Below are positions 1,974 through 19,310 of a stretch of 64,000 nucleotides of DNA, piece by piece. This DNA is from Pseudomonas sp. LRP2-20 (GTDB taxonomy: Bacteria; Pseudomonadota; Gammaproteobacteria; Pseudomonadales; Pseudomonadaceae): NCBI RefSeq assembly GCF_024349685.1, contig NZ_AP025944.1:3168001-3232000 (forward strand). Reading direction: 5' to 3'. A program made the translations under genes and the position numbers. Each line of letters opens with the position of its first letter. The stretch's first letter is position 1. The notes under the pieces are model-generated. The model ran no database searches and was not told the DNA's origin. It worked only from the letters and a program-made list of their open reading frames with translations.

Positions 1974-4431
1974 GAGGCGAACACTCGGTTTCTTGGGTTG
2001 ACGAACGTGACGCGGCACGGGCCCGGCTCGCCGCCGGGGCGCCATGGCCGCGCAGGAGGAAGTGCGACAGCGCCGGGATCAGCACCAGCGCGCCGAGCAT
2101 GTTCCAGAGGAACATGAAGGTCAGCAGCAGGCCCATGTCGGCCTGGAACTTGATCGGCGACCAGGCCCAACCGACCACGCCGGCGGCCAGGGTGATACCC
2201 ACCAGGCCGACCACGCGCCCGGTGAACGCCACGGCCTTCTGGTAGGCCTGGGCCAGCGGCAGGCCGGCGCGCTGGTGATATAGCTGCACGCTGAGCAGGT
2301 ACAACGCGTAGTCGACGCCAATGCCCACACCCAGGGCGATCACCGGCAAGGTGGCGACCTTGACGCCGATGCCCATGGCCACCATCAGCGCTTCGCACAG
2401 CAGCGAGGTGAGCATCAGCGGCAGGATCGCCACCAGGGTGGCGCGCCAGCTGCGGAAGGTGAACAGGCAGAACAGGGTGACAGCCAGGTACACCAGCAAC
2501 AGCATGCGGTGGTTGGCTTCGCGCACGACGATATTGGTGGCGGCCTCGATACCGGCGCTGCCGGCGGCCAGCAGGAACTGGCGTTCCTCGCCGCTGTTGG
2601 CCTGGGCGAAGCGCTCGGCGGTGGCGGCGACCTGCGCCAGGGTGTCGGCGCGGTGGTCCTTCAGGTACGCGATCACCGGCATCAGCGAGCAGTCGTTGTT
2701 GAACAGCTCCGGGGTGTTGACCGAAGCCTGCTGGGCCGCGTAGTTGAGCACGTCCTGATTGCGCTGCAGGCTGTTCAGGCGCGGGTTGCCCTCGTAGGTG
2801 CCGGCGGTGATCTGGCGCACCGCGTTGGCCAGCGACAAGGTGGTCTGCACCCCGGGCAGCTGCTGCAGCTCCCAGGCCAGGCGGTCGGCCAGCACCAGCG
2901 TCTGGTAGCGCAGGCAGCCTTCCGGCGGCGTCTTGACCATCACCGCGAAGGTGTCGCTGCTCAGTGCGTAGTGGCGGGTGATGAAGGCGTTGTCGCGGTT
3001 GTAGCGCGAGTCGGCGCGCAGCTCCGGGGCACCGCTGTCGAGGTCGCCGATCTTCAGTTGCAGGCTGCCCCACACCCCGATGGCGGCCAGGGCCACGGCC
3101 ACCAGCAAGGCGCCCGTGGCCCACTTGCGCTCGGTGAAGCGGTCGAGCAGGTCCCACAAGCGGCCAAAGCCACGGTGCTGCGCCGCGCGGGCATCGATGT
3201 ACAACGCGCGCTCGGCAGCCTTGCGGCCCACGCCGACATACGACAGCGCCACCGGCATCAGCAGCAGCGAGGTGAAGATCAGCACCGCCACGCCGATGCT
3301 GGCGGTGATGGCCAGGTCCTGGATCACCGGGATATCGATCAGCATCAGCACGGCAAAGCCTACGGCGTCCGCCAGCAGCGCGGTGACCCCGGCCACGAAC
3401 AGGCGGCGGAAGGTGTAGCGTGCGGCGATCTGCCGGTGGGTGCCACGGCCGATGTCCTGGAGGATGCCGTTCATCTTCTGCGCGGCGTGCGAGACGCCGA
3501 TGGCGAAGATCAGGAACGGCACCAGGATCGAGTACGGGTCGATGGCATAGCCCAGCCAGGCGACGATGCCCAGCTGCCAGACCACCGCTGTCAGCGAACA
3601 CAGCACCACCAGCAAGGTGCTGCGCACGCAGCGGGTGTACAGGTAGATGATCACCAGGCTGGTGACCACGGCCAAGGCAAAGAACGCCATCACCTGGATC
3701 AGCCCGTCGATCAGGTCGCCCATCAACTTGGCGAAGCCGATCACGTGTATCTGATACTGGCCGCTGGCCTGGTACTGGCTGCGCAGGTGCTCGAGCTTTT
3801 GCGAGAAGGCGTGGTAGTCGATGCCTTTGCCGGTGGCCGAATCCTGATCCAGCAGCGGCACGATCAGCATGCTCGACTTGAAGTCGCGGGCCACCAGGCT
3901 GCCGACGATGTTGGCGCGCTCGATGTTCTGGCGCAGCTGCTCGATGTCGGCAGCCCCGCCCTGGTAGCCATCGGGCATCACCGGGCCGCCCTGGAAGCCT
4001 TGTTCGGTGACCTCGGTCCAGCGCACTGCCGGGCTCCACAGCGATTTCATCCAGGCGCGGTCGACGCCGTCACTGAGGAACAGCTCGTCGTTGATCTGGC
4101 GCAGGGTCTGCAGGTAGTCGGGGTCGAAGATGTCGCCGCGGGTGTTCTCCACCACCACCCGCACCGAGTTGCCCAGGCCGCGCAGCGACGGGCGGTTTTC
4201 CAGGTAGTTCTGAATGTAGGGGTGGCTCTGCGGCAGCATCTTCTCGAAGCTGGGGCGCAGTTCCAGGCGGGTCAGTGCCATGTAGCCCAGCACCAGGGTG
4301 GTCAGGAGCATGCACAGCACAAAGGCCAGGCGATGGTTGAACACCAGGCGCTCCAGGCGATTGCCCGAACGGGGGTCGAAGTCGGCGAGGTTGTGGATCA
4401 CCGGCAGTGGGTCTTGGCGGATATCGGCCAT
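1966..4431 (-). CDS. MMPL/RND-superfamily permease
   Basis: An inner-membrane transporter of 821 aa with the MMPL/RND layout: one N-terminal membrane helix (about residues 34-54), a large periplasmic loop (about 55-235), a cluster of five to six helices with sterol-sensing-domain-like character (about 240-420), a second periplasmic loop, and a second helix cluster (about 650-800). Proteins of this kind move hydrophobic or lipid-like substrates using the proton gradient. The ATG shares one base with the TGA of the upstream beta-propeller gene (TGATG), and the 3' end overlaps the dehydrogenase start. No classical MFP/OMF tripartite partners are present; DUF1302 and DUF1329 proteins accompany it instead. 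Transport direction is not determinable from sequence. Confidence 0.88.
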   Translation of the reverse strand: MADIRQDPLPVIHNLADFDPRSGNRLERLVFNHRLAFVLCMLLTTLVLGYMALTRLELRPSFEKMLPQSHPYIQNYLENRPSLRGLGNSVRVVVENTRGDIFDPDYLQTLRQINDELFLSDGVDRAWMKSLWSPAVRWTEVTEQGFQGGPVMPDGYQGGAADIEQLRQNIERANIVGSLVARDFKSSMLIVPLLDQDSATGKGIDYHAFSQKLEHLRSQYQASGQYQIHVIGFAKLMGDLIDGLIQVMAFFALAVVTSLVIIYLYTRCVRSTLLVVLCSLTAVVWQLGIVAWLGYAIDPYSILVPFLIFAIGVSHAAQKMNGILQDIGRGTHRQIAARYTFRRLFVAGVTALLADAVGFAVLMLIDIPVIQDLAITASIGVAVLIFTSLLLMPVALSYVGVGRKAAERALYIDARAAQHRGFGRLWDLLDRFTERKWATGALLVAVALAAIGVWGSLQLKIGDLDSGAPELRADSRYNRDNAFITRHYALSSDTFAVMVKTPPEGCLRYQTLVLADRLAWELQQLPGVQTTLSLANAVRQITAGTYEGNPRLNSLQRNQDVLNYAAQQASVNTPELFNNDCSLMPVIAYLKDHRADTLAQVAATAERFAQANSGEERQFLLAAGSAGIEAATNIVVREANHRMLLLVYLAVTLFCLFTFRSWRATLVAILPLMLTSLLCEALMVAMGIGVKVATLPVIALGVGIGVDYALYLLSVQLYHQRAGLPLAQAYQKAVAFTGRVVGLVGITLAAGVVGWAWSPIKFQADMGLLLTFMFLWNMLGALVLIPALSHFLLRGHGAPAASRARAASRSSTQETECSPHV

Positions 4432-5408
4432 CAGGGTCTTCTCTCGTCGAAGGTGCGCACGCCCCGCTCGCCCACCAGCACCAGCCCGGTAGCGGCAGTG
4501 CTGGCAAGCGCGGTCACCGGGCCGCGTGTGGCTTGTGGCTGCGGGCTGAAGCTGGCGCCGCCATCGCGGCTGAGCAGCAGGTCGCCAGCCTGGCTGGCCA
4601 GCCAGACATCGCCGGCAGCCGTGAGGCTCGCGGCCGTCAGGCTAGTCTGCACGCCACTGCTGACCGGCTGCCATTGCTGGCCGCCGTCGGTGCTGCGGTA
4701 GGCATTGCCACGCAAGCCGTAGATCACCAACAGCCCGGGTTTGCCCACGGCTCCGAACAAGGTGCCGGCATAGGGCGTCGGCACCTGGGTGAAGCGCTCA
4801 CCAGCGGCATCCAGCTTGAGCAAAAGGCCCTGCTCGCCGGTGATGTACAGCGCCTCACCAACCGGCGCCAGGCTGGTCAGGTGCAAGCCTTGCGGGTTGT
4901 CGCTGTGGTCCTGCCACGGCAACCAGTGCTGGCCGCCGTCCTCGGTGCGCAGCAACAGGTTGAACAGGCCCACGGCATAGCCATGCTGGTCATCGCTGAA
5001 CCACACATCGAGCAAGGTGCTATCGCTGCCGTCGGCCAGCGCACGGCCATCGAGCTGCTTTTCCCAATGCTGGCCACCGTCACGGCTGTGCAGCACCACA
5101 CCGTCGTTACCCACCGCCCAACCCTGCTCGGCGGTGGCGAAGCTGACGGCATTGAGGTCGGCACTGACCGGCACCTGGGCCTGCTGCCAGTGCGCGCCCT
5201 GGTCGTCGGAATACAGGATGTGCCCACGCGGGCCCACCGCCACCAGGCGCTCACCGGCCCGGGTCACATCCCGCAGCGCACTGCTGGCGGCCAATGCACT
5301 GGGCATCGCCGGCAGGTCCAGCACGTCGGTGAAAGGCGCTGCCTGGGCCGCGCCTTGCAGCGCAACCCAGCACAGCATCGCCACGCTGCATCGTTTGAAG
5401 ACAGACAT
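4431..5408 (-). CDS. Ycf48/BNR-repeat beta-propeller protein, exported
   Basis: A secreted protein of 325 aa with a signal peptide (SVFKRCSVAMLCWVALQGAAQA) and at least five Asp-box/BNR repeats of the form S/T-x-D-x-G-x-x-W/F: SDDQGAHW, SRDGGQHW, TEDGGQHW, STDGGQQW and SRDGGASF. This is the architecture of Ycf48-like photosystem-assembly relatives that non-photosynthetic proteobacteria encode next to MMPL permeases. The start at 5408 is preferred over an ATG 18 bases upstream because AGAGG lies six bases before it and it leaves a normal signal peptide. It probably works as a periplasmic assembly or docking factor for the permease; that role is inferred from gene order only. Confidence 0.85.
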   Translation of the reverse strand: MSVFKRCSVAMLCWVALQGAAQAAPFTDVLDLPAMPSALAASSALRDVTRAGERLVAVGPRGHILYSDDQGAHWQQAQVPVSADLNAVSFATAEQGWAVGNDGVVLHSRDGGQHWEKQLDGRALADGSDSTLLDVWFSDDQHGYAVGLFNLLLRTEDGGQHWLPWQDHSDNPQGLHLTSLAPVGEALYITGEQGLLLKLDAAGERFTQVPTPYAGTLFGAVGKPGLLVIYGLRGNAYRSTDGGQQWQPVSSGVQTSLTAASLTAAGDVWLASQAGDLLLSRDGGASFSPQPQATRGPVTALASTAATGLVLVGERGVRTFDERRP

Positions 5409-5430
5409 TGCGAACCTCTGCGCCATGCGC

Positions 5431-6789
5431 TCAGCGGATGCCGTTGCCGGCCAGCGATTCAGGCGACCACTGGGCCTTGGACAGCGGGTCGATGTAGCGG
5501 ATACCGCCATAGGCACCGACCACGCCGTTGAGGTTGTAGGTGCCGCCGACCAGGTCGTAGATCATGAACGGCGTGGCGTCCGGGGTCTGCTTGTCGTAGC
5601 TCTGGGTCAGGAAGGCGAACGAGCCACGGTACAGCTGGCCGCGGGCGTCGTACTGGTCGGAGGCCAGGGCGACCCAGCTGTCCTCGTCGAGGTAGAAGCG
5701 GCGCTTGTGGTAGATGTGCCGCGCACCGTCCTTGAGCTTGCCTTCCACCACCCACACACGGTGTTTTTCCCAACGCACGAACTGCGGGGCAAGGTGGTTG
5801 GGGGTGATCAGCTGCTTGACGTCGGTGTTGTAGGTCAGCTGGTAGGTGTTGTACGGCACGTACATTTCCTGCTTGCCGACCAGGGTCCAGTCGTAGCGGT
5901 CGAGGGCGCCGTTGAAGACGAACACGTCATCGTAGGTGCCGGAGCCCGAGGTGCCGGGGTTGGGCGTGTCGTAGGCCAGGTTCGGCGCCAGCTTGACCCG
6001 GCGCTGCCCAGGCAGGTACTGCCAGGCGCTGCGCGGCTGCACCAGCGGGTTGGCGGCATCGCGCAGCATCATTGCTTCGCCGGCGCGGCGGGCGGGGCCG
6101 GTGTACACCAGTTTCATCTGGTAGTACGTGTCCTTGGCGCCGATGGGCTTGTTCATGTCTTCGTAGATCGGGTAACTGATGTTGGCCTGGCCGGTGGTCG
6201 ACAGCGTGGGCTTGCCGGCCGCATCGACGTTCCACGAATCGTACTTGGCGGTCATGCTCACGCCCTGATAGCGCAGCAGGAAGTTCCACATCGCCTCGGC
6301 GCCGTTCTGCGGGATCGGGAACGGGATGCCCGGCAGCACGTTGTTCACGGCGGTGCCACCCTCCTGGCTGTTGGCGCCGGTGGCGTTCTTCAGGGTGTTG
6401 TCCAGCACCGCCTGGGGCAGCGCGACGCTGCGGTGGGTCGGGTAGACATCAACGCGCATGGTCGGGAAGCGCTTGAGCAGCTCAAGGGTGGTGGCCGTCA
6501 GTTGGGCCTTGTACTGCTCGGCGTTCTTGCCATCGATGACCAACAGCGGTTTGTCGCTGGCGAAAGGGTCGGGGCGCATGCTGGCGCCGCTCTGGTAGCT
6601 GGCGGGCGGCGTCAGCAGGCCGCCCTGGTAGGCCGGGATCGAGCCATCGGCATTGGCGGCCTTTTCCGCGCCAAGAGTGGTCAGGCTCTTGCCCAGCTTG
6701 GCAGCCTGGTCAGGGGATACCGCGGCGTGGGCCGCGTTGAAGGCAGCCAGCGACAGGCACGTGGCCAACAGGGTGTTCACGTAGTTCAT
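5431..6789 (-). CDS. DUF1329 protein, exported LolA/LolB-like family
   Basis: A 452-aa protein with a clear signal peptide (NYVNTLLATCLSLAAFNAAHAA) followed by the DUF1329 domain over nearly all of its length; family members are predicted to adopt a LolA/LolB-like lipid-binding half-barrel. Typical features are the early PDQAAKLGKSLTTLGAEKAA segment and the C-terminal region rich in Tyr and Trp. It sits directly after the DUF1302 outer-membrane gene (38-base gap) and before the beta-propeller gene (22-base gap). The DUF1302-DUF1329 pair is recurrent in proteobacteria. An inferred role is to carry a hydrophobic ligand across the periplasm between the outer-membrane protein and the RND permease. 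Confidence 0.87.
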   Translation of the reverse strand: MNYVNTLLATCLSLAAFNAAHAAVSPDQAAKLGKSLTTLGAEKAANADGSIPAYQGGLLTPPASYQSGASMRPDPFASDKPLLVIDGKNAEQYKAQLTATTLELLKRFPTMRVDVYPTHRSVALPQAVLDNTLKNATGANSQEGGTAVNNVLPGIPFPIPQNGAEAMWNFLLRYQGVSMTAKYDSWNVDAAGKPTLSTTGQANISYPIYEDMNKPIGAKDTYYQMKLVYTGPARRAGEAMMLRDAANPLVQPRSAWQYLPGQRRVKLAPNLAYDTPNPGTSGSGTYDDVFVFNGALDRYDWTLVGKQEMYVPYNTYQLTYNTDVKQLITPNHLAPQFVRWEKHRVWVVEGKLKDGARHIYHKRRFYLDEDSWVALASDQYDARGQLYRGSFAFLTQSYDKQTPDATPFMIYDLVGGTYNLNGVVGAYGGIRYIDPLSKAQWSPESLAGNGIR

Positions 6790-6790
6790 G

Positions 6791-6801
6791 ATTGTTGTTT
6801 T
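6791..6801 (-). promoter_or_regulatory. A-rich Crc/Hfq-like site before the DUF1329 gene
   Basis: On the minus strand GGAAAACAACAATC runs straight into the ATG at 6789. It contains the AAnAAnAA pattern (AACAACAA) that Hfq-Crc binds at translation starts of catabolic mRNAs in Pseudomonas. Related sites occur at 8798, 9616, 13949 and 15171. Confidence 0.5.
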
Positions 6802-6827
6802 CCTGTGAAGTCTGTGGGGGACAGGTC

Positions 6828-8783
6828 TCAGAACGTGGTCTTGAGGGTCAGGTACAGGGCGCCACGGTCTTCGGTGGTGGCACCACCGCCGGAGAAGGAG
6901 GCATAGCCGCCGCCGTAGCAGGTGTAGTCCTGTTCGCCGTCGAGGGCGTTCGGCGTGCTGCCGTCGGTTTGGCCATCCTTGCAGGACTGGGTCTTGCCGA
7001 AGCTGTCGACGTACTTGAGGTCGACGAAGTACTGGTTGTAGATGGCGGCGCTGACGCCGACCGCATAGTTGCCGGTGTCCTTGGCACCGCCGCCCTGCAC
7101 CGGCGACACCCCGTCGATGCCGACGTTGACCGACAGTGGCAGGCTCAGGTCCATGCCTGGCAGCACCTGGAACCAGGTGGGCGTGAAGTTGACGGCGATG
7201 CCCCAGTTGTCGCGGGTCGGCTGGTCGATGCCGCGGTAGCTGCGCTTGCCCTTGTACAAGGCCTCGTTGTGGCCATCGAGCTTGAGCAGGTTGCTGTAGA
7301 ACAGCTCGCCGAGCAGGGTCGCCGAGTCGAACAGCGGCGTGTTGCCGATGGTCATCAGGCCGTTGAGGGTCCAGTGCAGGGTTTCGCCGGTGGCGCTCAG
7401 GCTGTCGCCGTCCTTGGGCACGTCGTAGATCACCCCGCTGCTCGCCAGGCGTGGCGGCAGCAGGCCGAAGCCGCCACCCAGGCCAGCGGTGCCAGGGGCA
7501 CTGACGATGGCCGGGATGCTCGCCAGGGGCATGTGGTGGCGAATGTTGAGGTCGCTGCCGACGCTGACGCCGCCGATGTCCTTGGACAGGCTCAGGCCAT
7601 AGATGTCGATGTCGTCGGCATAGGCGAACTGGTAGGTGGTGCTCTGCAGCGAGTTGTACAGGTTGCCGACGGCCCCCTGGCGGCTGCCGGGCGGGTTGCC
7701 GAACGGGCCCCTGGCCACGGTCATGCCACGGGCATCGAGCCAGGCCTGGGGCAGGATCTCGGAGGTCTTGCGGTAGTAGAAGCCCAGGGTGCCACCGAGC
7801 CACTCGGGCGACCACTTGGCCATGACGCCCCAGTCGCCGCTGTTGCGCGGGGTAAGGTCGTCGCCTCGGCGGATGGTGGTGAGCGCACCACGCACCGGGA
7901 TCAGCCCGGGGGTGCCGGTGTGGCCAAGCAGGAAGCTCTGGGCACCCTCGCCCACCACGTCGGAGCCGCCATAGTAAGTGCCGGCCTCGGGCAGGCGCGC
8001 GGCATCCCAGTCGAAGAAGTACTGCGCGCCCAGGGTCAGTTCGGGGTTGACCATGAACGACGTGGACAACTGGTTGCGCGGTACGAACAGTTCCTTGGCT
8101 TCGGTACCGGGTGAAGCCGCCAGCTTGGCCAGGTCCAGCCCGGACTGGCCGTAGCTCAGCGAGTGCACCGGGTTGAGCAGGGTTTCACCCCAGAACAGGT
8201 TGTGCTGGCCGACTTTGGCGCTGACCTGCGACTGCTCGCCCACATCGCGGCTGAAGAACACGAAGGCATCCAGCACTTCGCCTGACGGGCCGCTGTAGTA
8301 GCGCTGGGCATAGTTGCTCAGGTGGGGGCTGCCCAGTGGCACGCCGGTGCCCGGCAGGCCGTTGAGGCTGGGGTTGATGCCGGACTGGTCACCGTTGCCG
8401 TTGACGAACGGGTTGCTGTTGGAGCCGGTGTTGTCATACGCCTTGTCGTACCAGCTGGCGGTGCTGACACGAAAGCCGGTGTTGCCCTGGTAGACCACGT
8501 CCAGCTCGGTCAGCAGGTCGACCCGATTGGTGACCGTGGTGCCGGCCTTGCGGAAGTTGTAATCACCGTCGTTGCTGTTGGGCGTGCCCAGCATGCGTTT
8601 GTCGGCACTTTCGGTGCGTACGCCATAGTTGTACTTGACCGTGTTGTCGAAGCGCACGGCCCAGTCTTCGCTACCGGTGGTGACTTCGATGGCGTGCGCG
8701 CCGGGCAGGCTGAGCAGGCTGATGGCGCAGGCGAGCAGGCAGCGCTGTGGCTTCACAGCACGGTGAATGCGGTGTTCTGGCAT
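6828..8783 (-). CDS. DUF1302 outer-membrane protein
   Basis: A 651-aa protein with a signal peptide (CLLACAISLLSLPGAHA) and a long beta-strand-rich body ending in a C-terminal phenylalanine (LYLTLKTTF), the usual sorting signal of outer-membrane beta-barrels. Early residues EDWAVRFDNTVKYNYGVRTE and the conserved N-x-N-D-G-D-Y-N-F segment match the DUF1302 family. It probably forms a barrel that admits or releases a hydrophobic compound, working with the DUF1329 protein encoded immediately downstream. The start at 8783 gives a complete signal peptide and lies just behind an A-rich Crc-like motif; no strong Shine-Dalgarno sequence other than GGAG is visible. Function beyond the family name is inferred. 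Confidence 0.88.
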   Translation of the reverse strand: MPEHRIHRAVKPQRCLLACAISLLSLPGAHAIEVTTGSEDWAVRFDNTVKYNYGVRTESADKRMLGTPNSNDGDYNFRKAGTTVTNRVDLLTELDVVYQGNTGFRVSTASWYDKAYDNTGSNSNPFVNGNGDQSGINPSLNGLPGTGVPLGSPHLSNYAQRYYSGPSGEVLDAFVFFSRDVGEQSQVSAKVGQHNLFWGETLLNPVHSLSYGQSGLDLAKLAASPGTEAKELFVPRNQLSTSFMVNPELTLGAQYFFDWDAARLPEAGTYYGGSDVVGEGAQSFLLGHTGTPGLIPVRGALTTIRRGDDLTPRNSGDWGVMAKWSPEWLGGTLGFYYRKTSEILPQAWLDARGMTVARGPFGNPPGSRQGAVGNLYNSLQSTTYQFAYADDIDIYGLSLSKDIGGVSVGSDLNIRHHMPLASIPAIVSAPGTAGLGGGFGLLPPRLASSGVIYDVPKDGDSLSATGETLHWTLNGLMTIGNTPLFDSATLLGELFYSNLLKLDGHNEALYKGKRSYRGIDQPTRDNWGIAVNFTPTWFQVLPGMDLSLPLSVNVGIDGVSPVQGGGAKDTGNYAVGVSAAIYNQYFVDLKYVDSFGKTQSCKDGQTDGSTPNALDGEQDYTCYGGGYASFSGGGATTEDRGALYLTLKTTF

Positions 8784-8797
8784 TGCGATGACTCCAC

Positions 8798-8813
8798 TTA
8801 TTGTTCTTGTTGT
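8798..8813 (-). promoter_or_regulatory. A-rich Crc/Hfq-like site before the DUF1302 gene
   Basis: The minus strand reads ACAACAAGAACAATAA about 15 bases before the ATG at 8783. It holds two overlapping AAnAAnAA matches (AACAAGAA and AACAATAA), the strongest A-rich motif of the five in this block. Confidence 0.55.
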
Positions 8814-8869
8814 ATTGGGCCGCCCGTCATCTGCGGGCTTGGCCTGGGCATCCGTGCGCGGTTGGCGGA

Positions 8870-9436
8870 TCAGTGGTCCAGGCGGCGAATCAGGTTTTCG
8901 GCCAGCGGCCAGGGGCCGAAGCCGGCTGCCGGGTTGAGGTGGCCGACCGCGCCCAGGGCGACCAGCTCGCTGCCCCAGGCCTGGGCCATGGCACCGGCGG
9001 CGTCGAAACTGGCCAGGTGGTCGTTGCTGCTGGCAGCGACGATGCTGGGGAATGGCAGCGGCGCCATCGGCAAGGGCGACCAGCCCTGCTCGGCCAGACG
9101 TTGCGGGCTGGGGTAATGGGCCGGCCACTGGGCGTCCAGGTCAGGCGGTGCGGCCAGCAATGCGCCCTTGATCGGCCGCTGGTAGCGGGCCGCCCAGTGA
9201 GCCACCATCAACACGCCAGCGCTGTGCGCCACCAGCACCACCTCACCGTCGACCTGCTCCAGCTCGCGCTGGATGGCTTCGACACGGGCGTTGCAGCTGA
9301 GCCCGTCGACCTGCAGCGGTGGCACGCTGCGGACCTTGGCCAGGCGCGCTTCGAGCAGGGTTTGCCAATGCTCGCTGACATGATCGCGCAGGCCGGGGAT
9401 GATCAGCACGGTGGCGGCGGTTTGCAGTTTTTCCAC
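8870..9436 (-). CDS. RBBP9/YdeN-family alpha/beta hydrolase
   Basis: A small serine hydrolase of 188 aa. After VEKLQTAATVLIIPGLRDHVSEHWQ comes the nucleophile elbow LVAHSAGVLM (G/A-H-S-x-G), an acid region near PSIVAASSNDHLASF and the catalytic histidine in ALGAVGHLNPAAGFG. This matches the RBBP9/YdeN family of cytosolic hydrolases. I place the start at the GTG at 9436 because GAGG sits seven bases upstream and the homology begins there; longer in-frame readings use TTG and lack a ribosome site. It is the first gene of the seven-gene operon that runs off the left edge. The substrate is unknown; an ester or lactone in the same pathway is a reasonable guess. Confidence 0.8.
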   Translation of the reverse strand: MEKLQTAATVLIIPGLRDHVSEHWQTLLEARLAKVRSVPPLQVDGLSCNARVEAIQRELEQVDGEVVLVAHSAGVLMVAHWAARYQRPIKGALLAAPPDLDAQWPAHYPSPQRLAEQGWSPLPMAPLPFPSIVAASSNDHLASFDAAGAMAQAWGSELVALGAVGHLNPAAGFGPWPLAENLIRRLDH

Positions 9437-9530
9437 GTCGGAACCTCGTTTTGCATCGGGGCTTGGATCGGGTACGAGGTTCACAGTAATGAGGGGGCTC
9501 GGCGGGTGCTTCACATTGCGCGTCAGTGGC

Positions 9531-9584
9531 TTTTCATTTGATGACAAGGTGCTGTTGCGGGCTTGTGCTTCTCAATTGATGACA
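9531..9584. promoter_or_regulatory. Paired TTGATGACA motifs, candidate AraC operator
   Basis: TTTTCATTTGATGACA (9531-9546) and a second TTGATGACA (9576-9584) lie 38 bases apart in the region between the hydrolase gene and the divergent AraC-type gene. The 16-nt form recurs exactly at 17163-17178, in the same orientation and at nearly the same distance (about 95 versus 103 bases) from the minus-strand gene it precedes. Direct repeats with regular helical spacing are typical AraC-family targets; the link to the adjacent regulator is inferred. Confidence 0.55.
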
Positions 9585-9615
9585 CGCAGGCTATAAATCA
9601 CAGACCGCCTGACGG

Positions 9616-9627
9616 AAAACAATAAAA
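9616..9627 (+). promoter_or_regulatory. A-rich Crc/Hfq-like site before the AraC gene
   Basis: AAAACAATAAAA abuts the ATG at 9628 and includes an AAnAAnAA match (AACAATAA). If functional it would place the regulator itself, and so the whole regulon, under catabolite repression. Confidence 0.5.
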
Positions 9628-10638
9628 ATGCCCGCCCTAGTCCGTGCCGCCAGCCTGACCAATTACCTCGAAGTGTCCCGCCATGTGGGCCTGAACCCCA
9701 ACGCCCTGCTCGCCCAGGTCGGCCTCAGCGCCGCCCTGCTCGACGACCCCAACCGGCGTATTCCGGCGGCCAACGTGATAACCCTGCTGGAAGAGTCGGC
9801 CCGTGCCAGCGGTTGCGAAACCTTCGGCCTGCGCATGGCCGAATCGCGCCAGCTCTCGGACTTCGGCGAGATCAGCCTGCTGCTCAGCCACCAGCGCAAC
9901 CTGCGTGATGCCCTGGAAGTGATCGTGCAGTATCGCCACCTGCTCAACGATGCGCTGGCCATCCACGTCGAGGAAGCCGGCAAGACCGTCATCATTCGCG
10001 AAGAAGTGATCAATGAACGGGCGCCGTGCAGCCGCCAGGCCACCGAGCTTGCCATCGGCGTGATGCTGCGCCTGTGTGCGGCGCTGCTGGGTGCCCAGTG
10101 GCACCCGATCAGCGCCAACTTCACCCATGCCGCACCCGCCGACCTGGCCATCCACCGGCGTATCTTTGGCTGCAAGCTGGTGTTCGGCAGCGAGTTCAAC
10201 GGCATCGTCTGCCCCGCTGCCGACCTCGACAGCGCCAGCCCCCAGGCCAACGAGGCCATGGCGCGCCTGGCGCGGCGCTACCTGGACACGCTGCCGGCCG
10301 GCGGCACGCCGTCACTGGAACTGGAGCTGCGCAAGACCATCTACCTGCTGCTGCCCATGGGCCGCGCCACCATCGAGCAGGTGGCGCAGACCCAGGGCAT
10401 GAATGTGCGCACGCTGCAACGGCGCCTGGAAGAAGACGGGCTGACGTTCAAGGACATGATCAACAACGTGCGCCGCGACCTGGTGATGCGCTACCTGGAA
10501 AACCCCAGCTATTCGCTGGGGCGCATCGCCGACATGCTCGGTTACTCGATGCCCAGTTCGTTCACCCGCTGGTTCATCGCCCAGTTCGGCATGCCGCCGG
10601 CCAGCTGGCGGGCACAGCATACCGAACAGGCGCCTTAG
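9628..10638 (+). CDS. AraC-family transcriptional regulator (arabinose-binding-like N domain)
   Basis: A 336-aa regulator. The N-terminal part (about residues 15-200) matches the Arabinose_bd/OruR-type ligand domain with LTNYLEVSRHVGLNPNALL, and the C-terminal 85 residues form two helix-turn-helices: IEQVAQTQGMNVRTLQRRL and GRIADMLGYSMPSSFTRWF. It is transcribed away from the hydrolase-RND operon and converges on the YeiH gene, whose stop codon overlaps its own (TTAG at 10635-10638). The position between two catabolic operons that share a TTGATGACA motif suggests it activates both. The inducer is unknown. Confidence 0.9.
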   Translation: MPALVRAASLTNYLEVSRHVGLNPNALLAQVGLSAALLDDPNRRIPAANVITLLEESARASGCETFGLRMAESRQLSDFGEISLLLSHQRNLRDALEVIVQYRHLLNDALAIHVEEAGKTVIIREEVINERAPCSRQATELAIGVMLRLCAALLGAQWHPISANFTHAAPADLAIHRRIFGCKLVFGSEFNGIVCPAADLDSASPQANEAMARLARRYLDTLPAGGTPSLELELRKTIYLLLPMGRATIEQVAQTQGMNVRTLQRRLEEDGLTFKDMINNVRRDLVMRYLENPSYSLGRIADMLGYSMPSSFTRWFIAQFGMPPASWRAQHTEQAP

Positions 10639-11645
10639 AGGCCCCAGTGCATCAGCGCCAGCACCAGCAAAACGAGGAACACGCTTTCCCCTACCATCAG
10701 CGCGATGGGCTTGAGCCCCACTGAAGCCAAGGCCTTGAGCTGGGTCTTCATGCCCAGGGCGCTGATGGCCACCACCAGGCAGCCACGTGACAGGTCATTG
10801 ATGCCGCCCTGTACTGCCGCAGGCACCCAGCCGGTGCTGTTGACGCAGGCCAGCAGCACGAAGCCGACGGCGAACCATGGCAGCAATGGTGGGCGCTGGC
10901 CACTGGCATCCAGGCCCTGACGGCGGGTGATCATCGCCGCGCAGACGATCACCGGCAGCAACATGGCCACGCGCATGAGCTTGACCACCGTGGCGATGTC
11001 GCCGGTTTCGGTGGACATGCTGTAACCGGCGCCGACCACCTGGGCGACGTCGTGGATGGTGGCCCCGAGGAATACCCCGGCCTGCCCCGGCGACAGATGC
11101 AACCCATTGGCAATCATCGGGTAGAGGATCATCGCCAGGGTCGACAACGCCGACACGCCAATCACCGTGAACAGCGTGGCGTGTTCCTTGCGCGGGTGCT
11201 GGGGCAACGCCGCCGCCAGCGCCAATGCCGCAGAGGCGCCGCAGATGGCCGTGGCACCGCCGGTCAACAGGCCGAACAACCGGGAAAAACCCAGCGCCTT
11301 GGCTGCAATCACCGACACCACGATGGTCACCAGCACCAGGATGACCACCAGCGCCACTGGCCTCCAGCCAAGGCTGGCGATCTGGCCGAGGGTAATGCGC
11401 ATGCCCAGCAGGGCCACCCCCAGGCGCAGCACGCCGCGGGCAGTGAACTCGATGCCAGCCTTGCACGGTCCGTCGACGGCCAGGAAGTTCAGGGCCATGC
11501 CCAGCAACAACGCGAACAGCATGACCGGCGCCGCGTAGTGCTCACTGAGAAAGCTCGCCGCCGCGCCCACGATCAGGCTGACCGCGATGCCTGGGGCCAA
11601 TGCGCGAATGCGGTGCTGCGCCGCCGTGATCGCCAGCGTGCTCAT
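10635..11645 (-). CDS. YeiH/COG2855-family putative sulfate exporter
   Basis: An integral membrane protein of 336 aa with about ten hydrophobic helices and the family signature GGATAICGASAALALAAALP in the middle. The family (YeiH, COG2855) includes putative sulfate or sulfite exporters encoded with taurine-degradation genes. It is the last gene of a block whose junctions are all 4-base ATGA overlaps (MFS, DsbA-like, Rieske, YeiH), so it is very probably co-transcribed with them. A TauD-type dioxygenase about 3.5 kb upstream on the same strand gives the sulfonate idea some support, but the substrate is not shown by sequence. Confidence 0.85.
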   Translation of the reverse strand: MSTLAITAAQHRIRALAPGIAVSLIVGAAASFLSEHYAAPVMLFALLLGMALNFLAVDGPCKAGIEFTARGVLRLGVALLGMRITLGQIASLGWRPVALVVILVLVTIVVSVIAAKALGFSRLFGLLTGGATAICGASAALALAAALPQHPRKEHATLFTVIGVSALSTLAMILYPMIANGLHLSPGQAGVFLGATIHDVAQVVGAGYSMSTETGDIATVVKLMRVAMLLPVIVCAAMITRRQGLDASGQRPPLLPWFAVGFVLLACVNSTGWVPAAVQGGINDLSRGCLVVAISALGMKTQLKALASVGLKPIALMVGESVFLVLLVLALMHWGL

Positions 11646-11968
11646 TGCCCGCCCTCCTCGTTGCCCAGCACGATGTACACCTGCTGGCCCTGGCATTCGA
11701 CCGGGTAGCTGTTGACTTTCAGCGCCCTGGAGTTGAGCAGGTAGCCGCTGGCCAGGTCGAAGCGCAGGCCATGGGCGCAGCACTGGATGACCCGGCCCTC
11801 CAGGCGCCCGCCGCACAGCGAAGCGCCCTGGTGCGGGCAACTGTCGTCGATCGCGTACAGGGTATCGGCCACATTGAACACGGCCAGGCTCTTGCCGTGG
11901 CTTTGCACCAGCACACGCCCGTTGCGCTCGGGGACCTGGCTCGCGGCCAGGGCGATCCGCCGGGTCAT
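11642..11968 (-). CDS. Rieske-type [2Fe-2S] ferredoxin
   Basis: A 108-aa soluble Rieske protein. Both cluster-binding boxes are present: Cys44-Pro-His46 and Cys63-Cys-Ala-His66, separated by 16 residues, as in ferredoxin components of ring-hydroxylating oxygenases and NirD-like proteins. No oxygenase alpha subunit is encoded nearby. It overlaps YeiH by four bases downstream and the DsbA-like gene by four upstream, so it is part of the same operon. It probably passes electrons to an oxygenase or reductase encoded elsewhere. Confidence 0.88.
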   Translation of the reverse strand: MTRRIALAASQVPERNGRVLVQSHGKSLAVFNVADTLYAIDDSCPHQGASLCGGRLEGRVIQCCAHGLRFDLASGYLLNSRALKVNSYPVECQGQQVYIVLGNEEGGQ

Positions 11969-12618
11969 GCCGGCACCTGCACTTGCAAGGCTTCGAGCAT
12001 GGCCGCGAACAGCACATCGGCCGGTTGCGCGCCAGCGATCAGGCGGCCCTCATTGAAGCGAAAACGCGGCACCGCGCTGCCCGCGCGCCCGGCACCGTCG
12101 AGAAACGGGCTGCCATCGTCACGCAGGCAGTCGACCACTTGCGCCGCCTGCAACCCGCAGGACTGGGCAATGGCAAGCAGTGTCCGGCTGTCGCCCAGGT
12201 CACGCCCCTGATGAAAGCAGGCAATGAACAGCTGTGCCAGCAAGGTTTCAAGCCGCCTGGCGCCAAGCAGGCCGGATGCACGTTGCAACAGGCGGTGGGC
12301 ATTGGCGGTATTGGGCATGCGGCGGATGCGCGTGAAGTCGATGTCTTCGCCGACCACGCTGGCCGCTGCACGCACCTGCGCCTGGCGCTCGCGCACGGCC
12401 TGCTCGCTGCCCAGCCGCTGCACATAGAACGCGTGGAATGGCACGCCATTGGCCGGCAGGCCAGGCAGCAGTTGCACGCCGCGCCACTGCAGGTCCACCT
12501 GCACCTGCGGCTGTTCGCGCTGCAACAGCAACAAAGCGGCCTGCAATTGCCGCTGACCAATCAGGCACCACGGGCAAATGAAATCGAACAACACTTCAAC
12601 CGATAACGTCTGTTTCAC
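11965..12618 (-). CDS. DsbA/FrnE-like thioredoxin-fold protein
   Basis: A 217-aa cytosolic DsbA-family protein with an N-terminal active site FDFICPWCLIG (Cys15-Pro-Trp-Cys18) and a helical insertion ending in an AGSAVPRFRFN segment with the cis-Pro loop typical of FrnE. There is no signal peptide, so it is not the periplasmic oxidase DsbA. Relatives include FrnE-type disulfide isomerases and 2-hydroxychromene-2-carboxylate isomerases, which use glutathione. In this operon an isomerase step in catabolism is as likely as redox repair. Confidence 0.83.
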   Translation of the reverse strand: MKQTLSVEVLFDFICPWCLIGQRQLQAALLLLQREQPQVQVDLQWRGVQLLPGLPANGVPFHAFYVQRLGSEQAVRERQAQVRAAASVVGEDIDFTRIRRMPNTANAHRLLQRASGLLGARRLETLLAQLFIACFHQGRDLGDSRTLLAIAQSCGLQAAQVVDCLRDDGSPFLDGAGRAGSAVPRFRFNEGRLIAGAQPADVLFAAMLEALQVQVPA

Positions 12619-13919
12619 GAACTCAACTCCTCGGTACGGCTGACCGATGCTTGCAGACGCTCCATGTCGCGGTGGTAATGGCGTTTGCCGATGAAGAACA
12701 CGGCCGCAGCGGCGATGCTCACCAGCGGCACCAGCTGGAACGCGGCGTGCAAACCGATCAGGTCAGACACCCGTCCGGTGATCAGCGGGCCGGTGGCCAG
12801 GCCCAACAGGTTGTTGGCCAGGGTCAGGGTGGCGAACGCCGTGCCATGCACGGCGGCGTGGGTCAGGTTGGCGACCATGGCGCTGGACGGGCCATTGGTG
12901 CCGACGGCGATCATCATGCCCAGGCAGATCAGCACCAGCTGCGCGGTGCCCACCGGCAGCGCAAAGGCCAGCGACAGCAGCAGGCAGCTGCCCAGGCAAT
13001 AACCGATGGCCAGGCTGATCTTGCGGTCCGGGCGTTGTCGGCCCAGGCGGTCGCAGAGCATCGCGCAGAGGATCGTGCCGATGCCGCTGCACAGCACGAT
13101 CACTGCGGCAATGGCCCCGGCGCGATCAGTGCCCATGGCGTAGTAGCGGTTCAGGTAGCTGGGCATCCAGACGATCACCGTGCCACCGACGAACAGTTGC
13201 AGGCCGCTGCCGATGTACGCGGCGATCACCGAGCGCGAGCCATACAAGGAGCGCAGCGGGCGACTCGCCTTCAGCTGCGCCTGTTCGGCGCATTTGGCGG
13301 AGATGCGGGCTTCCTTGACGATCAGCGGGTACAGCAGCGCCAGCACCAGGCCGAACAGCGCCATGCCGGCGAACGCCCAGCGCCAGCCCAGGTGCTGGGC
13401 CAGGACACCGCCCAGGGCCATGCCCAGCACCGAGCCGAACATGCCACCGGCCATGAAGGCGCCGGCCAGGGTCGAGCGCATGTCGCGGGGGAACACCGCC
13501 ACCACCACGGCAATGCCGACGCTGCCGTAGGCGGCCTCGCCGACACCTACCAGGAAGCGCGCGATGAACATCTGCGGGTAGTTTTCTGCCAGGGCGCAGC
13601 CCAGGGTCGCCAGGCTCCACAGCACGGCCATCAGTACCAGGCTGCGGACCCGGCCGAAGCGGTCGGCCAGCAAGGACAACGGGAAGGTCAGCAGGCCGAC
13701 CATCAGCGCGACAATGCCACTGAGCAGGCCGAGCTGGCTGTCGCTCAGGGCCCACTCGCCCTTGAGCAGCGGGAACACGGCATTGAGCACCTGGCGCGAC
13801 ATGTAGTCGGAGATCAACAGGCCGAAGGTCAGGGCGAAGACGACCCAGGCATAGCGCCGGGGGACGCTGTGCAAGGTGTCGGTGCCGGGTGCCTGGGCAC
13901 TGGCGAGATAGGTGGCCAT
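12615..13919 (-). CDS. MFS transporter
   Basis: A 12-helix major-facilitator permease of 434 aa. The loop 2-3 signature is LLADRFGRVRSL, and RFLVGVGEAAYGS in helix 4 resembles organic-anion or spinster-type carriers. The start at 13919 follows CGAGGAGG by six bases. It is the first gene of the MFS-DsbA-Rieske-YeiH block, each gene overlapping the next by four bases. A pair of REP palindromes separates it from the BKACE gene upstream. It likely imports the substrate of the adjacent pathway, but its specificity cannot be read. Confidence 0.88.
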   Translation of the reverse strand: MATYLASAQAPGTDTLHSVPRRYAWVVFALTFGLLISDYMSRQVLNAVFPLLKGEWALSDSQLGLLSGIVALMVGLLTFPLSLLADRFGRVRSLVLMAVLWSLATLGCALAENYPQMFIARFLVGVGEAAYGSVGIAVVVAVFPRDMRSTLAGAFMAGGMFGSVLGMALGGVLAQHLGWRWAFAGMALFGLVLALLYPLIVKEARISAKCAEQAQLKASRPLRSLYGSRSVIAAYIGSGLQLFVGGTVIVWMPSYLNRYYAMGTDRAGAIAAVIVLCSGIGTILCAMLCDRLGRQRPDRKISLAIGYCLGSCLLLSLAFALPVGTAQLVLICLGMMIAVGTNGPSSAMVANLTHAAVHGTAFATLTLANNLLGLATGPLITGRVSDLIGLHAAFQLVPLVSIAAAAVFFIGKRHYHRDMERLQASVSRTEELSS

Positions 13920-13948
13920 GGTGCCTCCTCGGAGTATCTGGCGTGGGG

Positions 13949-13962
13949 TTGTTCTTGTTTTT
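13949..13962 (-). promoter_or_regulatory. A-rich Crc/Hfq-like site before the MFS gene
   Basis: The minus strand reads AAAAACAAGAACAA about 30 bases ahead of the MFS start, containing AACAAGAA. It sits upstream of the ribosome site rather than over it, so it is a slightly weaker case than those at 6791, 8798 and 9616. Confidence 0.42.
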
Positions 13963-13994
13963 ATGGATACAGCCAACAATCATTACTGCCTGTT

Positions 13995-14092
13995 CTGGCC
14001 TCTTCGCGGGCAAGCCCGCTCCCACAGGTACTGCACAGGCCTGAGTGATGTGCAGAGCCTGTGGGAGCGGGCTTGTCCCGCGAAGAGGCCAG
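13995..14092. repeat. Inverted pair of REP elements
   Basis: The arm 13995-14028 (starting CTGGCCTCTTCGCGGG) and its near-perfect reverse complement at 14058-14092 face each other across about 29 bases. Each arm is a Pseudomonas REP unit with the GCGGG...CCCGC TCCCACAGG core. The pair can form a long cruciform and probably ends or insulates transcription between the BKACE and MFS genes. Confidence 0.9.
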
Positions 14093-14102
14093 TCCTGCTT
14101 TG

Positions 14103-15155
14103 TCAGGCCCGCTGCGGCACGCCCCTCTGCCCCGGCAGGCGATTCGGCGCCATGCCGTTGGCCTTGAGCGTCTGCTCGATGCTGGTGTACTGCTCGCCAA
14201 TGCGGTAAATGGCCCGGGCCTCTTTGCCGTTGGCCACTTCCCGGCCCAGTTCATGGGCCACGCGCACGGTCTGCTGGATCTGCTGCACCGAGCCGAAGCG
14301 CTTGCCGTGCTGGTCGATGATGGTGTCTTCGTTGCCGCAGCGCGGGTGCAGGCCCATGGCCAGGGCCATGGTGTTGAACGGCAACACGTTCTTGAGCAAC
14401 GACTCGGCCGTCAGCGTGCAGCCATCTGGCGCGCGGTGGATGAAGTTGAAGAAGTTGAACGGGTTGGGCCCATCAAATCCGCCACCGATGCCGATCCAGG
14501 TCAGGTTCAGCGGGCCCATGTAGTCGCCACGGCGAACGATGCGCTCGAGGGTTTCCAGGGCATGCATGCCGGTCAGCTGGAAGTGCGGCTGGATGCCACT
14601 GGCCTGCAACCGGCGCAGGTGTTCGCGGACCCAGGCCGGGCCGGCAGGCACGGTCATCTCGCTGTAGGCAGCGTGGATCGCCGGGTGGGCCAGGGAGGTG
14701 CCTTCCAGGTACTGCGGGTACAGCAGCTCCATGATGTTCATCTGCGTGGTGTTGATTGCCACGGTCACCTGGTCGGGGCGCGGCGTCAGCTCGGCGAGCA
14801 TGTGCCGGGTGTCGTCGGACAGCCACTTGGCCGCCTCACCCTCGCCTTCGGGGGCGAAGGAAATCGAGCCACCGACCTGGATGATCATGTCCGGCACCGC
14901 TTCACGCACACCGGCGATCAGTTCGTTGAACTTGGACAGGCGCTTGGAGCCCTTGCCGTCCAGTTCGCGCACATGCAGGTGCAGCACGGTGGCACCGGCT
15001 TCGTAGCAATCGACGGCCTTCTGCACCTGCTCATCCATGGTCAGCGGGATGTCTTCGGGGAAGTCCTCGGGCATCCATTCCGGGCCGTACGGGGCGACGG
15101 TGATCACCACCTTTTCCATGTTTTCCGGGTGCAACGAATCATCGAAGAATTGCAT
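14103..15155 (-). CDS. BKACE (3-keto-acid cleavage) family protein, DUF849
   Basis: A 350-aa zinc-dependent enzyme of the beta-keto acid cleavage family, which condenses a beta-keto acid with acetyl-CoA to give acetoacetate and a new CoA ester. The metal site shows as His59-Leu-His61 (VLHLHVRE) and the downstream HPRCGNEDTI segment supplies the glutamate. The start MQFFDDSLHP follows AGGAC by several bases and gives the family's usual length. It follows the dioxygenase gene on the same strand after 62 bases. BKACE members act on carnitine-derived 3-dehydrocarnitine, 3,5-diketohexanoate and other keto acids; which one applies here is open. Confidence 0.88.
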   Translation of the reverse strand: MQFFDDSLHPENMEKVVITVAPYGPEWMPEDFPEDIPLTMDEQVQKAVDCYEAGATVLHLHVRELDGKGSKRLSKFNELIAGVREAVPDMIIQVGGSISFAPEGEGEAAKWLSDDTRHMLAELTPRPDQVTVAINTTQMNIMELLYPQYLEGTSLAHPAIHAAYSEMTVPAGPAWVREHLRRLQASGIQPHFQLTGMHALETLERIVRRGDYMGPLNLTWIGIGGGFDGPNPFNFFNFIHRAPDGCTLTAESLLKNVLPFNTMALAMGLHPRCGNEDTIIDQHGKRFGSVQQIQQTVRVAHELGREVANGKEARAIYRIGEQYTSIEQTLKANGMAPNRLPGQRGVPQRA

Positions 15156-15170
15156 GCAGTAGTCCTCGCT

Positions 15171-15181
15171 ATTGTTATTGT
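15171..15181 (-). promoter_or_regulatory. A-rich Crc/Hfq-like site before the BKACE gene
   Basis: The minus strand reads ACAATAACAAT about 15 bases before the ATG at 15155, containing AATAACAA (AAnAAnAA). Confidence 0.45.
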
Positions 15182-15217
15182 GCTGTGCGCCGCGCGCCTG
15201 AGTGTGCGGCGGGTGAC

Positions 15218-16066
15218 TCAGAAGGTGCGGCTGCCCTTGATCCCCGCGCGCTCCATCTTGCGATGGCACGGTGGGTAGTCCATGACCGCGTAATGCTGGG
15301 TGCTGCGGTTGTCCCAGATCGCCACGCTGTTGGGCTTCCAGCGCCAGCGCACCTGGTACTCGGGCAGGTAGGCCTGGCTGACCAGGTAGCGCAGCAAGTC
15401 GGCGGCACCGGGGTTGGCGTCCTGGCCGAAGCGCACGCGCTGGGGGGTGTGGTAGTTGCTGAAGTGGGTGGTGAAGGCGTTGACGAACAGCACCTGCTCG
15501 CCGGTTTCCGGGTGGGTGCGTACCACCGGGTGCTCGGCGTCTGGGAACTGCGCCTTGAGCGCCAGGCGCTTGTCGATCGGCATGGCGGCGCCGAAGCTGG
15601 CTTCGATGCTGTGGCGTGCGCGCAGGCCTTCGACCTTGGCTTTCACGTCGGCGGGCAGGTTCTCATAGGCCAGCACCATGTTTGCCCACAGGGTGTCGCC
15701 GCCCACCGGCGGGCACTCGACGCAGCGCAGCACGCAGCCCATGGGCGGCGCTTCGCGCCAGGTGGCGTCGGTGTGCCAGGCGTTTTCATAGCGGTCGTTG
15801 GGCTGGTCGGGGCGTTTGTAGATCTGCACCAGGCCAGGGTGCTCCGGGTCGCTGCCGGCCACCGGGTGATCTTCCAGCTCGCCAAAGCGCCGGGCAAAGG
15901 CCACGTGTTCGGCACGGCTGAAGTGCTGGTCACGCAGGAACAGCACACGGTGCCTGAGCAACTGCGCGCGCAGCTGCTCGAACAGGTCGTCGTCATGGAT
16001 CGCGTCAGCCAGGTTGACGCCGCTTATCTCGGCGCCGATCGCACAGGTCAGTTGTTCGATGTGCAT
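15218..16066 (-). CDS. TauD/TfdA-family 2-oxoglutarate dioxygenase
   Basis: An Fe(II)/2-oxoglutarate dioxygenase of 282 aa. The metal triad is visible: His98 and Asp100 in AWHTDATW and the distal His258 in STQHYAVMDY, with a downstream arginine (RKMERAG) for 2-oxoglutarate. TauD enzymes hydroxylate taurine so that it releases sulfite and aminoacetaldehyde; relatives act on other sulfonates, alkyl sulfates, 2,4-D and carnitine precursors. It lies between the quinone oxidoreductase (13-base gap) and BKACE genes. The HTD motif is certain; the substrate is not. The nearby YeiH-type exporter makes a sulfonate plausible, while the BKACE partner fits a betaine or carnitine-like compound equally well. 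Confidence 0.9.
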   Translation of the reverse strand: MHIEQLTCAIGAEISGVNLADAIHDDDLFEQLRAQLLRHRVLFLRDQHFSRAEHVAFARRFGELEDHPVAGSDPEHPGLVQIYKRPDQPNDRYENAWHTDATWREAPPMGCVLRCVECPPVGGDTLWANMVLAYENLPADVKAKVEGLRARHSIEASFGAAMPIDKRLALKAQFPDAEHPVVRTHPETGEQVLFVNAFTTHFSNYHTPQRVRFGQDANPGAADLLRYLVSQAYLPEYQVRWRWKPNSVAIWDNRSTQHYAVMDYPPCHRKMERAGIKGSRTF

Positions 16067-16079
16067 GCTGTTGCCCTCT

Positions 16080-17060
16080 TCAGATGACGAAGATCGACGA
16101 GCCGGTGGTCCTGCGCGCTTCCAGGTCGCGATGGGCCTGGACGGCGTCCTGCAGGGCATAGTGCTGGTTGATCTCGATACGGATGCGGCCGCTGCTGACG
16201 TGGTCGAACAGCTCGCCGGCCAGGTCGGCCTTTTCCGCAGGGTCGGCAATGAAGTCGGCCAGTGCCGGGCGGGTCAGCTGCAGCGAACCCTTGATCGCCA
16301 GCAACTGTGGATCGAACGGCGCAATGGTGCCCGAGGCGGTCCCCACGCAGACCATCAGGCCACGGCGCTTGAGCGAATCGAGCGAGCCCATGAAGGTGTT
16401 CTTGCCAACGCTGTCGAACACCACGTTGACGCCAACGCCATCGGTGAGCGCGCGCACGCGGCTGGCCACGTCCTCGACGCTGTAGTTGATGATGTGGTTG
16501 CAGCCATGGGCGCGGGCGACCTCGGCCTTGGCCTCGGTGGACACCGTGCCGATCACGTTCAGCCCGAGCAGCCGCGCCCATTGCGCGACGATCAGGCCGA
16601 CGCCGCCCGCAGCGGCATGCAGCAGCACGGTGTCGCCGGGCTTGAAGGCGTACAGCCGGCGCATCAGGTAGGCCGCGGTCAGGCCACGCATGGTCATGGC
16701 GGCGGCGGTTTCGAAGGCGATGGTTTCCGGCAGCTTGATCAGCGCCGCAGCGGGGATCAACCGCTCGGTGCAGTAAGCGCCGAGGGTATTGAGAAACCCG
16801 GTGTAGGTCACCCGGTCACCCACCGCCACCTGGGTCACACCCTCACCTACCGCCTGCACCACGCCGGACGCTTCCACGCCGATGCCATTGGGCAGCGGGA
16901 TCGGGTAGGTACCATTGCGAAAGTAGGTGTCGGCATAGTTCAGGCCAACCGCCACCTGACGCAAGCGCACCTGCCCCGGGCCAGGCTCACCGACCTCGGC
17001 ATCCTCGTAGCGCAGCACTTCGGGGCCACCGGTCTGATGGAAACGTACGACTTTGGACAT
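16080..17060 (-). CDS. Zinc-less quinone oxidoreductase (QOR family)
   Basis: An NADPH:quinone oxidoreductase of the medium-chain dehydrogenase superfamily, 326 aa. The N-terminal GroES-like domain has GLNYADTYFRNGTYP, and the Rossmann domain has the dinucleotide motif HAAAGGVGLIVAQWA. The cysteine ligands of zinc-dependent alcohol dehydrogenases are missing, as expected for QorA-like enzymes. The start at 17060 is chosen over an ATG six codons upstream because family members begin MSK-x-V-x-F. It is the first gene of the QOR-TauD-BKACE operon, 103 bases downstream of a TTGATGACA motif. Confidence 0.88.
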   Translation of the reverse strand: MSKVVRFHQTGGPEVLRYEDAEVGEPGPGQVRLRQVAVGLNYADTYFRNGTYPIPLPNGIGVEASGVVQAVGEGVTQVAVGDRVTYTGFLNTLGAYCTERLIPAAALIKLPETIAFETAAAMTMRGLTAAYLMRRLYAFKPGDTVLLHAAAGGVGLIVAQWARLLGLNVIGTVSTEAKAEVARAHGCNHIINYSVEDVASRVRALTDGVGVNVVFDSVGKNTFMGSLDSLKRRGLMVCVGTASGTIAPFDPQLLAIKGSLQLTRPALADFIADPAEKADLAGELFDHVSSGRIRIEINQHYALQDAVQAHRDLEARRTTGSSIFVI

Positions 17061-17162
17061 GCTTGTCTCTCCAATCATCGATCTGGACGCTAGGCGTCAG
17101 TTCTGGGTAATTGGAATGTAAGCGCTCGGGGTACGGGATGCTTCGCATCGGGCGACAGCGGG

Positions 17163-17178
17163 TTTTCATTTGATGACA
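17163..17178. promoter_or_regulatory. Second copy of the 16-nt TTGATGACA operator-like motif
   Basis: TTTTCATTTGATGACA here is identical to 9531-9546. It lies about 103 bases upstream of the quinone oxidoreductase start, in the same orientation relative to transcription as the first copy. About 39 bases further upstream is a degenerate match, TTCATGAGC (17209-17217), echoing the 38-base spacing of the first pair. Confidence 0.55.
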
Positions 17179-17975: not shown

Positions 17976-17993
17976 GCTCTGTGAAATTTCCTG

Positions 17994-18024: not shown

Positions 18025-18074
18025 TCTCCAAAACCCAACCCGCCCGACGCCTGGCGCTAACTTGGAGAACCCCC

Positions 18075-19310
<1,236 letters not shown>

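Follow-up and report, generated by a model that had tools for sequence, protein, structure and literature searches.

A predicted direct-repeat operator shared by two Pseudomonas operons and its probable AraC/XylS-type regulator

Introduction

Are the two operons that flank an AraC-type gene in Pseudomonas sp. LRP2-20 controlled by the product of that gene, and through what operator? The question arose from a 64,000-nucleotide (nt) stretch of the genome (contig NZ_AP025944.1, positions 3,168,001 to 3,232,000; hereafter the window, in which all positions are given). A sequence-only reading of the window had noted an identical 16-nt motif upstream of a hydrolase gene and a quinone oxidoreductase (Qor) gene, and had proposed a shared AraC regulon with an operator of paired TTGATGACA elements 38-39 bases apart. 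The shared regulon is strongly supported by the analysis presented here, through a pair of half-sites with AraC/XylS geometry, the co-occurrence of this pair with the regulator and sites upstream of sorA that track the regulator. The proposed operator was replaced, as the conserved pair has a 21-base-pair (bp) register and a diverged second half. Taken as a whole, the best explanation of the locus, to which we assign a probability of roughly 0.87, is that the protein encoded at 9628-10638 would bind the 21-bp pair and switch on both operons, with a third half-site on the promoter of its own gene.

Results

The regulator and a direct-repeat operator

The AraC-type gene (9628..10638, plus strand) does lie between the operons, divergent from the hydrolase gene and with the first site in the gap. 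Its product belongs to the AraC/XylS family, with a C-terminal helix-turn-helix domain (PF12833 HTH_18, E 4.6e-17) and an N-terminal sensor/dimerisation domain (PF12625, E 9.2e-51), both above the curated cut-offs. The scores for the QhpR equivalog (NF049968; 195.8 vs a cut-off of 250) and the GliR equivalog (NF050186; 135.8 vs 570) were below threshold.

In plus-strand reading the 16-mer is TTTTCATTTGATGACA, with exact copies at 9531-9546 and 17163-17178, where they had been reported, and a two-mismatch copy at 9569-9584. The distances of 95 and 103 bases given earlier agree with gene starts at GTG 9436 and ATG 17060, with a ribosome-binding-like stretch ahead of both (GAGG and GGAGAG, respectively). 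At up to three mismatches the window holds three matches against 0.12 expected, a number reached in none of 100 shuffles. A search of the 6,034,532-base genome at up to two mismatches found the 16-mer in three places, every one in this locus, and the reversed pattern in none. With up to one mismatch allowed, the 9-mer core TTGATGACA turns up in the window about as often as chance would have it (12 vs 10.65 expected), and while the 16-mer is significant, the core is uninformative alone.

Since the flanking genes on both sides run on the minus strand, the site reads TGTCATCAAATGAAAA. When the two upstream regions are aligned side by side, the likeness continues past the 16-mer, with five bases followed by TG(A/T)CGCnC(A/G)ATGnGAAGC. 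This second element, which begins 21 bp after the first, repeats it in diverged form (TG.C....ATG..AA). The minus-strand operator is TGTCATCAAATGAAAA-N5-TGnCGnnnnATGnnAAGC, a direct repeat in a 21-bp register of which the 16-mer is only the first half; the second half-sites had been overlooked, and the operator anatomy first proposed was wrong. At operon 1 the distal half-site TGTCATCAAATGAAAA (9531..9546), located by motif search and conserved in relatives, is followed 21 bp on by the proximal half-site TGACGCGCAATGTGAAGC (9508..9525), recognized by alignment and conservation, and by a predicted -10 box, TACTGT (9483..9488). On the same evidence, the minus-strand elements at operon 2 are the distal half-site TGTCATCAAATGAAAA (17163..17178), the proximal half-site TGTCGCCCGATGCGAAGC (17140..17157) and a predicted -10 box, TACATT (17115..17120), and both -10 boxes correspond to a TAnnnT found at the same offset in relatives. 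This offset places the -35 position on the end of the second half, which is a class II layout, and at operon 1 that position (9506-9511) reads AAGCAC. Direct-repeat half-sites about 21 bp apart with the proximal one at -35 are, judged from sequence only, an operator of the AraC/XylS type.

These elements suggest a mechanism in which the regulator would bind, probably as a dimer, the direct repeat before each operon. At its end the proximal half-site overlaps the -35 position, where the hexamer is poor; on such a weak promoter the regulator, once bound, would bring in RNA polymerase (class II activation), probably with a metabolite of the pathway in its N-terminal domain.

Conservation of the operator in relatives

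The window genes were placed in 80 loci of named organisms, most of them Pseudomonas, each fetched for its relative of the AraC protein (49-99% identity). A footprint required both halves, the second with no more than one miss among eight key positions. Both halves were found in 61 of the 63 hydrolase upstream regions with at least 150 nt available, while 60 Qor upstream regions yielded a first-half candidate in 58 and a good second half in 53. A TAnnnT box occurs at offset 58 in 59 of the 61 hydrolase sites (offset 59 in the remaining two) and in 52 of the 53 Qor sites (offset 57 in the remaining one), and at these sites no other offset from 44 to 71 has one. Information content reaches 1.2-2.0 bits at most half-site positions, compared to 0.0-0.5 in the ten bases upstream, and the distal half-site is better conserved than the proximal one. 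The pair extends to a Caulobacter locus (L080) and a Burkholderiaceae metagenome-assembled genome (L079), and where the second operon is split (G045) a separate pair belongs to each of the pieces.

Co-occurrence with the regulator and unlinked sites

Across the genus the 16-mer at up to two mismatches is too loose, being present in 221 of 298 Pseudomonas genomes, and a 39-base pattern of the whole pair was therefore used. In the genome of LRP2-20 this pattern occurs in exactly two places, each without a mismatch (reversed control, none), so that the many copies in unrelated genes that would have spoken against a regulon are absent. With up to three mismatches the pair occurs in 66 of the 298 genomes and the reversed control in one. 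The regulator is present at E<=1e-120 in 63 genomes, all 63 of which carry the pair. As side observations, GGTCATCAAATGAAAA and TTTCATCAAATCAAAA are common to many Pseudomonas genomes without this regulator (e.g., L093, L097 and L103), perhaps as sites of other AraC-type regulators.

Much of this co-occurrence could reflect a single locus inherited whole, and the alternative that survives best builds on that point: another transcription factor would bind the pair, with the AraC gene a bystander inherited with the locus. It would also accommodate the pair in three of the 235 genomes without the regulator at this threshold (G135, G228 and G108), and the presence in some genomes of two or more relatives of the regulator at E<=1e-120. 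In an 11-kb stretch searched in the three pattern-only genomes, Qor alone was found in G135 and none of 16 window proteins in G228 and G108, and these pair sites appear to be what is left of a lost locus. The sites themselves (L116, L117 and L118, respectively) are good, and one now faces an RHS-repeat gene. Against a bystander, the 21-bp direct repeat is the geometry of AraC/XylS proteins, and the 400 nt upstream of the araC relative contain a pair in 74 of 80 loci despite differing neighbours, compared to 0 of 7 for the paralogous AraC-type genes that these loci also carry.

Because of the possible linkage, unlinked sites were sought, and their behavior leaves the bystander an unlikely explanation. 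Several extra pair sites in relatives precede a gene for a molybdenum sulfite dehydrogenase, sorA, that is unlinked to the main locus (L120, L122, L123, L126-L130 and L132-L136). The L122 protein is related to SorA (2blf, E 4.3e-157), subunit A of sulfite:cytochrome c oxidoreductase, and the gene next to its own encodes a cytochrome c (Cytochrom_C, E 2.8e-11); this full check covers L122 and is confined to sequence. The gene was first noticed behind three of nine sites fetched, a count that leaves aside a 100-base stretch from G144, and then behind ten of 11 sites picked by sequence likeness, the eleventh (L131) being cut by a contig end. Starting from sorA gives a fairer count. With the L122 protein as the query (E<=1e-150), sorA was found in 25 of 298 genomes, and the pair is upstream of it in 18 of the 21 with the regulator and in 0 of the 4 without, even though three of these four genes are 86-87% identical; the matrix used for this test had not been trained on the sorA sites. 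The regulator is present in 21 of the 25 sorA genomes compared to 63 of 298 overall (Fisher p 2e-12, uncorrected for kinship). On this comparison, the sorA sites tie the pair to the regulator in trans.

Other pair sites precede genes for DUF1329 (L137 and L143), BKACE (L142), PhaC-like (L124 and L139) and CoA-ligase (L144) proteins. A PAS-type methyl-accepting chemotaxis gene stands behind the pair beside the araC relative in L037 (8131-9696) and elsewhere in L138 (1460-3025), and chemotaxis may belong to the regulon. In L031 a second BKACE-TauD copy beside the main locus (17776-19873) has its own pair site (score 43.6).

The third half-site and the predicted araC promoter

The two-mismatch copy at 9569..9584 (minus strand) had been regarded as the partner of the copy at 9531. 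The distance of 38 bases is present here; it is not conserved, varying from 36 to 190 in relatives, and the copy sits on the araC promoter as a single, putatively autoregulatory half-site. It covers the -35 and spacer of a predicted promoter, TTCTCA-N17-TATAAA (9569..9597, plus strand), so the protein would probably limit its own synthesis, and autorepression is probably the simplest reading. A single half-site upstream of araC, in the same orientation and ending near a TATAA-like box, was found in 40 of the 80 loci, with a gap of 7 nt in 39 and 8 nt in one. As the gap to the -10-like box is fixed and the distance to the pair is variable, the half-site is assigned to the araC promoter.

The same measurements bear on the operator as first proposed, two TTGATGACA elements at a spacing of 38-39 bp, with a DNA loop or a wide dimer perhaps joining them. 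The copies at 9531 and 9569 do lie 38 bp apart, and in 16 of the 40 relatives with a single half-site the nearest pair is 36-38 away, but this distance is 49-190 in 22 and no pair is in reach in two, while the box stays in place. Moreover, the degenerate copy near 17209 lacks the wide conservation of the half-site in the 21-bp register; in the 42 nt shown upstream of the Qor site it is seen, among the loci listed, only in the window, L004, L005 and L065. With a spacing that relatives do not conserve, the 38-bp pair was rejected as the operator, and we consider this arrangement highly improbable.

Gene content of the two operons

Both operons lie on the minus strand and each is probably one transcript, judging for operon 1 from gene order and spacing. 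Operon 1 (204..9436) encodes a serine hydrolase (8870-9436), the hydrolase discussed above, a DUF1302 protein (start taken as 8783), a DUF1329 protein (5431-6795), a YCF48/BNR protein (4431-5516, start uncertain), an MMPL/RND protein (1966-4431) and an acyl-CoA dehydrogenase (204-1961). Operon 2 (10635..17060) encodes Qor (16080-17060), a TauD/TfdA-type dioxygenase (15218-16066), a BKACE protein (14103-15155), an MFS carrier (12615-13919), a DSBA-like protein (11965-12618), a Rieske protein (11642-11968) and a PF03601 membrane protein (10635-11645). The nearest solved relative of the dioxygenase is 5vn6 (E 9e-165), named taurine dioxygenase by its depositors, and its score for the taurine dioxygenase equivalog (PRK09553) is 256 vs a cut-off of 313. 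The membrane protein belongs to the wider family PF03601 (E 2.4e-70) and scores 154.7 against the cut-off of 232.6 for the YeiH putative sulfate exporter subfamily (TIGR00698). No SorA was found in the LRP2-20 genome at E<=1e-20 with the query that matches 25 other genomes.

Between the MFS and BKACE genes, nested inverted repeats (13995-14092; arms of 30 nt, 90% complementary, and 16 nt, 100% complementary), which we take to be REP-like, may separate or attenuate two parts of operon 2. Upstream of Qor, a plus-strand open frame of 68 amino acids (17280-17486) has no Pfam match.

Discussion

The operator sites of this locus recur in relatives at a set spacing, with a -10 box at a fixed offset, in genomes that hold the regulator and, at sorA, in most genomes with the regulator and in none of those without it. 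Chance similarity or plain conservation among close relatives was rejected as an explanation and has next to no probability, for although regulator identity reaches 97-99% in the closest relatives, the footprint already contradicts it, with conservation mainly at the half-sites and the -10 across loci whose regulators are 49-99% identical, and the window pairs score 65.6 and 62.6 on the matrix compared to a maximum of -1.6 in 30 Markov-resampled windows.

Several points weigh against control of both operons by the AraC/XylS-type protein. Binding, activation, autorepression and a ligand are what we infer from the patterns described, and a consensus sigma-70 scan, which requires a good -35, returned no promoter in either region. 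The genome counts carry no phylogenetic correction and relatives are not independent, and the loci scored for pair presence near araC had also served to train the scoring matrix. The 400 nt next to araC lack a pair in six of the 80 loci and four loci lack one altogether, in addition to the three genomes with a pair and no regulator. Three of the 21 regulator-bearing sorA genomes have no sorA site: G015 has none, the G233 gene is 63% identical and the G070 gene aligned only from residue 190, with the promoter outside the alignment. The layout is not uniform either, as TAnnnT was not found at the 19 sites scoring above 40 in the sorA loci (one more than the 18 counted), where TACTG lies one base further in 17, at offset 61 in one and is lacking in one. 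Finally, the half-site and -10-like box upstream of araC fall outside the arrangement described in the other 40 of 80 loci (e.g., L054-L062 and L064), and in L033, L037 and L043 the box is present with the half-site forming part of a pair; autoregulation of araC is not universal among the relatives.

The regulatory mechanism is of a known, textbook kind, and the link to sulfite is the interesting part. Since relatives have SorA behind this operator too, the hypothesized substrate is one that releases sulfite, and a sulfonate is the best single candidate, at about even odds. With similar reserve, the system could be a conserved AraC regulon, undescribed in the open-access literature searched, for breaking down an organosulfonate of amphiphilic or acyl type. 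The dioxygenase would release sulfite and the PF03601 protein would export sulfite or the product; in relatives SorA and the cytochrome would oxidize sulfite, and some would add the PAS-type chemoreceptor, PhaC-like, CoA-ligase, BKACE and DUF1329 genes. Neither the regulator nor the cluster was met in titles and the starts of abstracts of open-access literature, where the exact motif strings returned nothing beyond a cotton paper. The analysis provides a predicted operator and a named regulator for a cluster conserved in part of Pseudomonas, the unlinked sulfite dehydrogenase makes the hypothesis of a sulfite-releasing substrate specific, and the regulon may help to assign DUF1302/DUF1329/RND export systems.

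Comparison with known systems draws on parts of the cited papers. The nearest solved full-length relative of the regulator is VirS of M. tuberculosis (PDB 8rcx, E 1.4e-33), a likeness judged on the protein, with different genes and biology. Operon 1 resembles the AmeABCD exporter of Castellaniella defragrans in combining a DUF1302 outer-membrane protein, a DUF1329 periplasmic protein and an RND transporter in one cluster (PMC6394551); that exporter lies in a monoterpene island, and 'AraC' is absent from the text of the paper. The P. putida genes PP_0765 (DUF1302) and PP_0766 (DUF1329) are described as required for growth on Tween20 in the part of PMC10866462 drawn on. The TauR taurine regulons likewise couple sulfonate breakdown with export of sulfite or sulfate, and include TauD in two Ralstonia species, but TauR is a MocR-type regulator and the main pathway runs via Xsc and not via a TauD/BKACE operon (PMC5320631). 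Closer in regulation is SphR of P. aeruginosa, an AraC-family activator of a small regulon (sphA, sphBCD and cerN) that uses two direct-repeat half-sites starting with TG; its 15-nt half-site and gap of 6-8 bp give, by our arithmetic, a register of about 21-23 bp, while its half-site TGNCCSNNRNNSNCC, its ligand sphingosine and its target genes differ (PMC3900636). MtlR at PmtlE of P. fluorescens, with XylS/Pm cited alongside it, differs in sequence and in its ligand, mannitol, and shares two direct-repeat half-sites in a register of about 22 bp (our arithmetic from the consensus), with a strong upstream half and a weak downstream half beside the -35 (PMC4514859).

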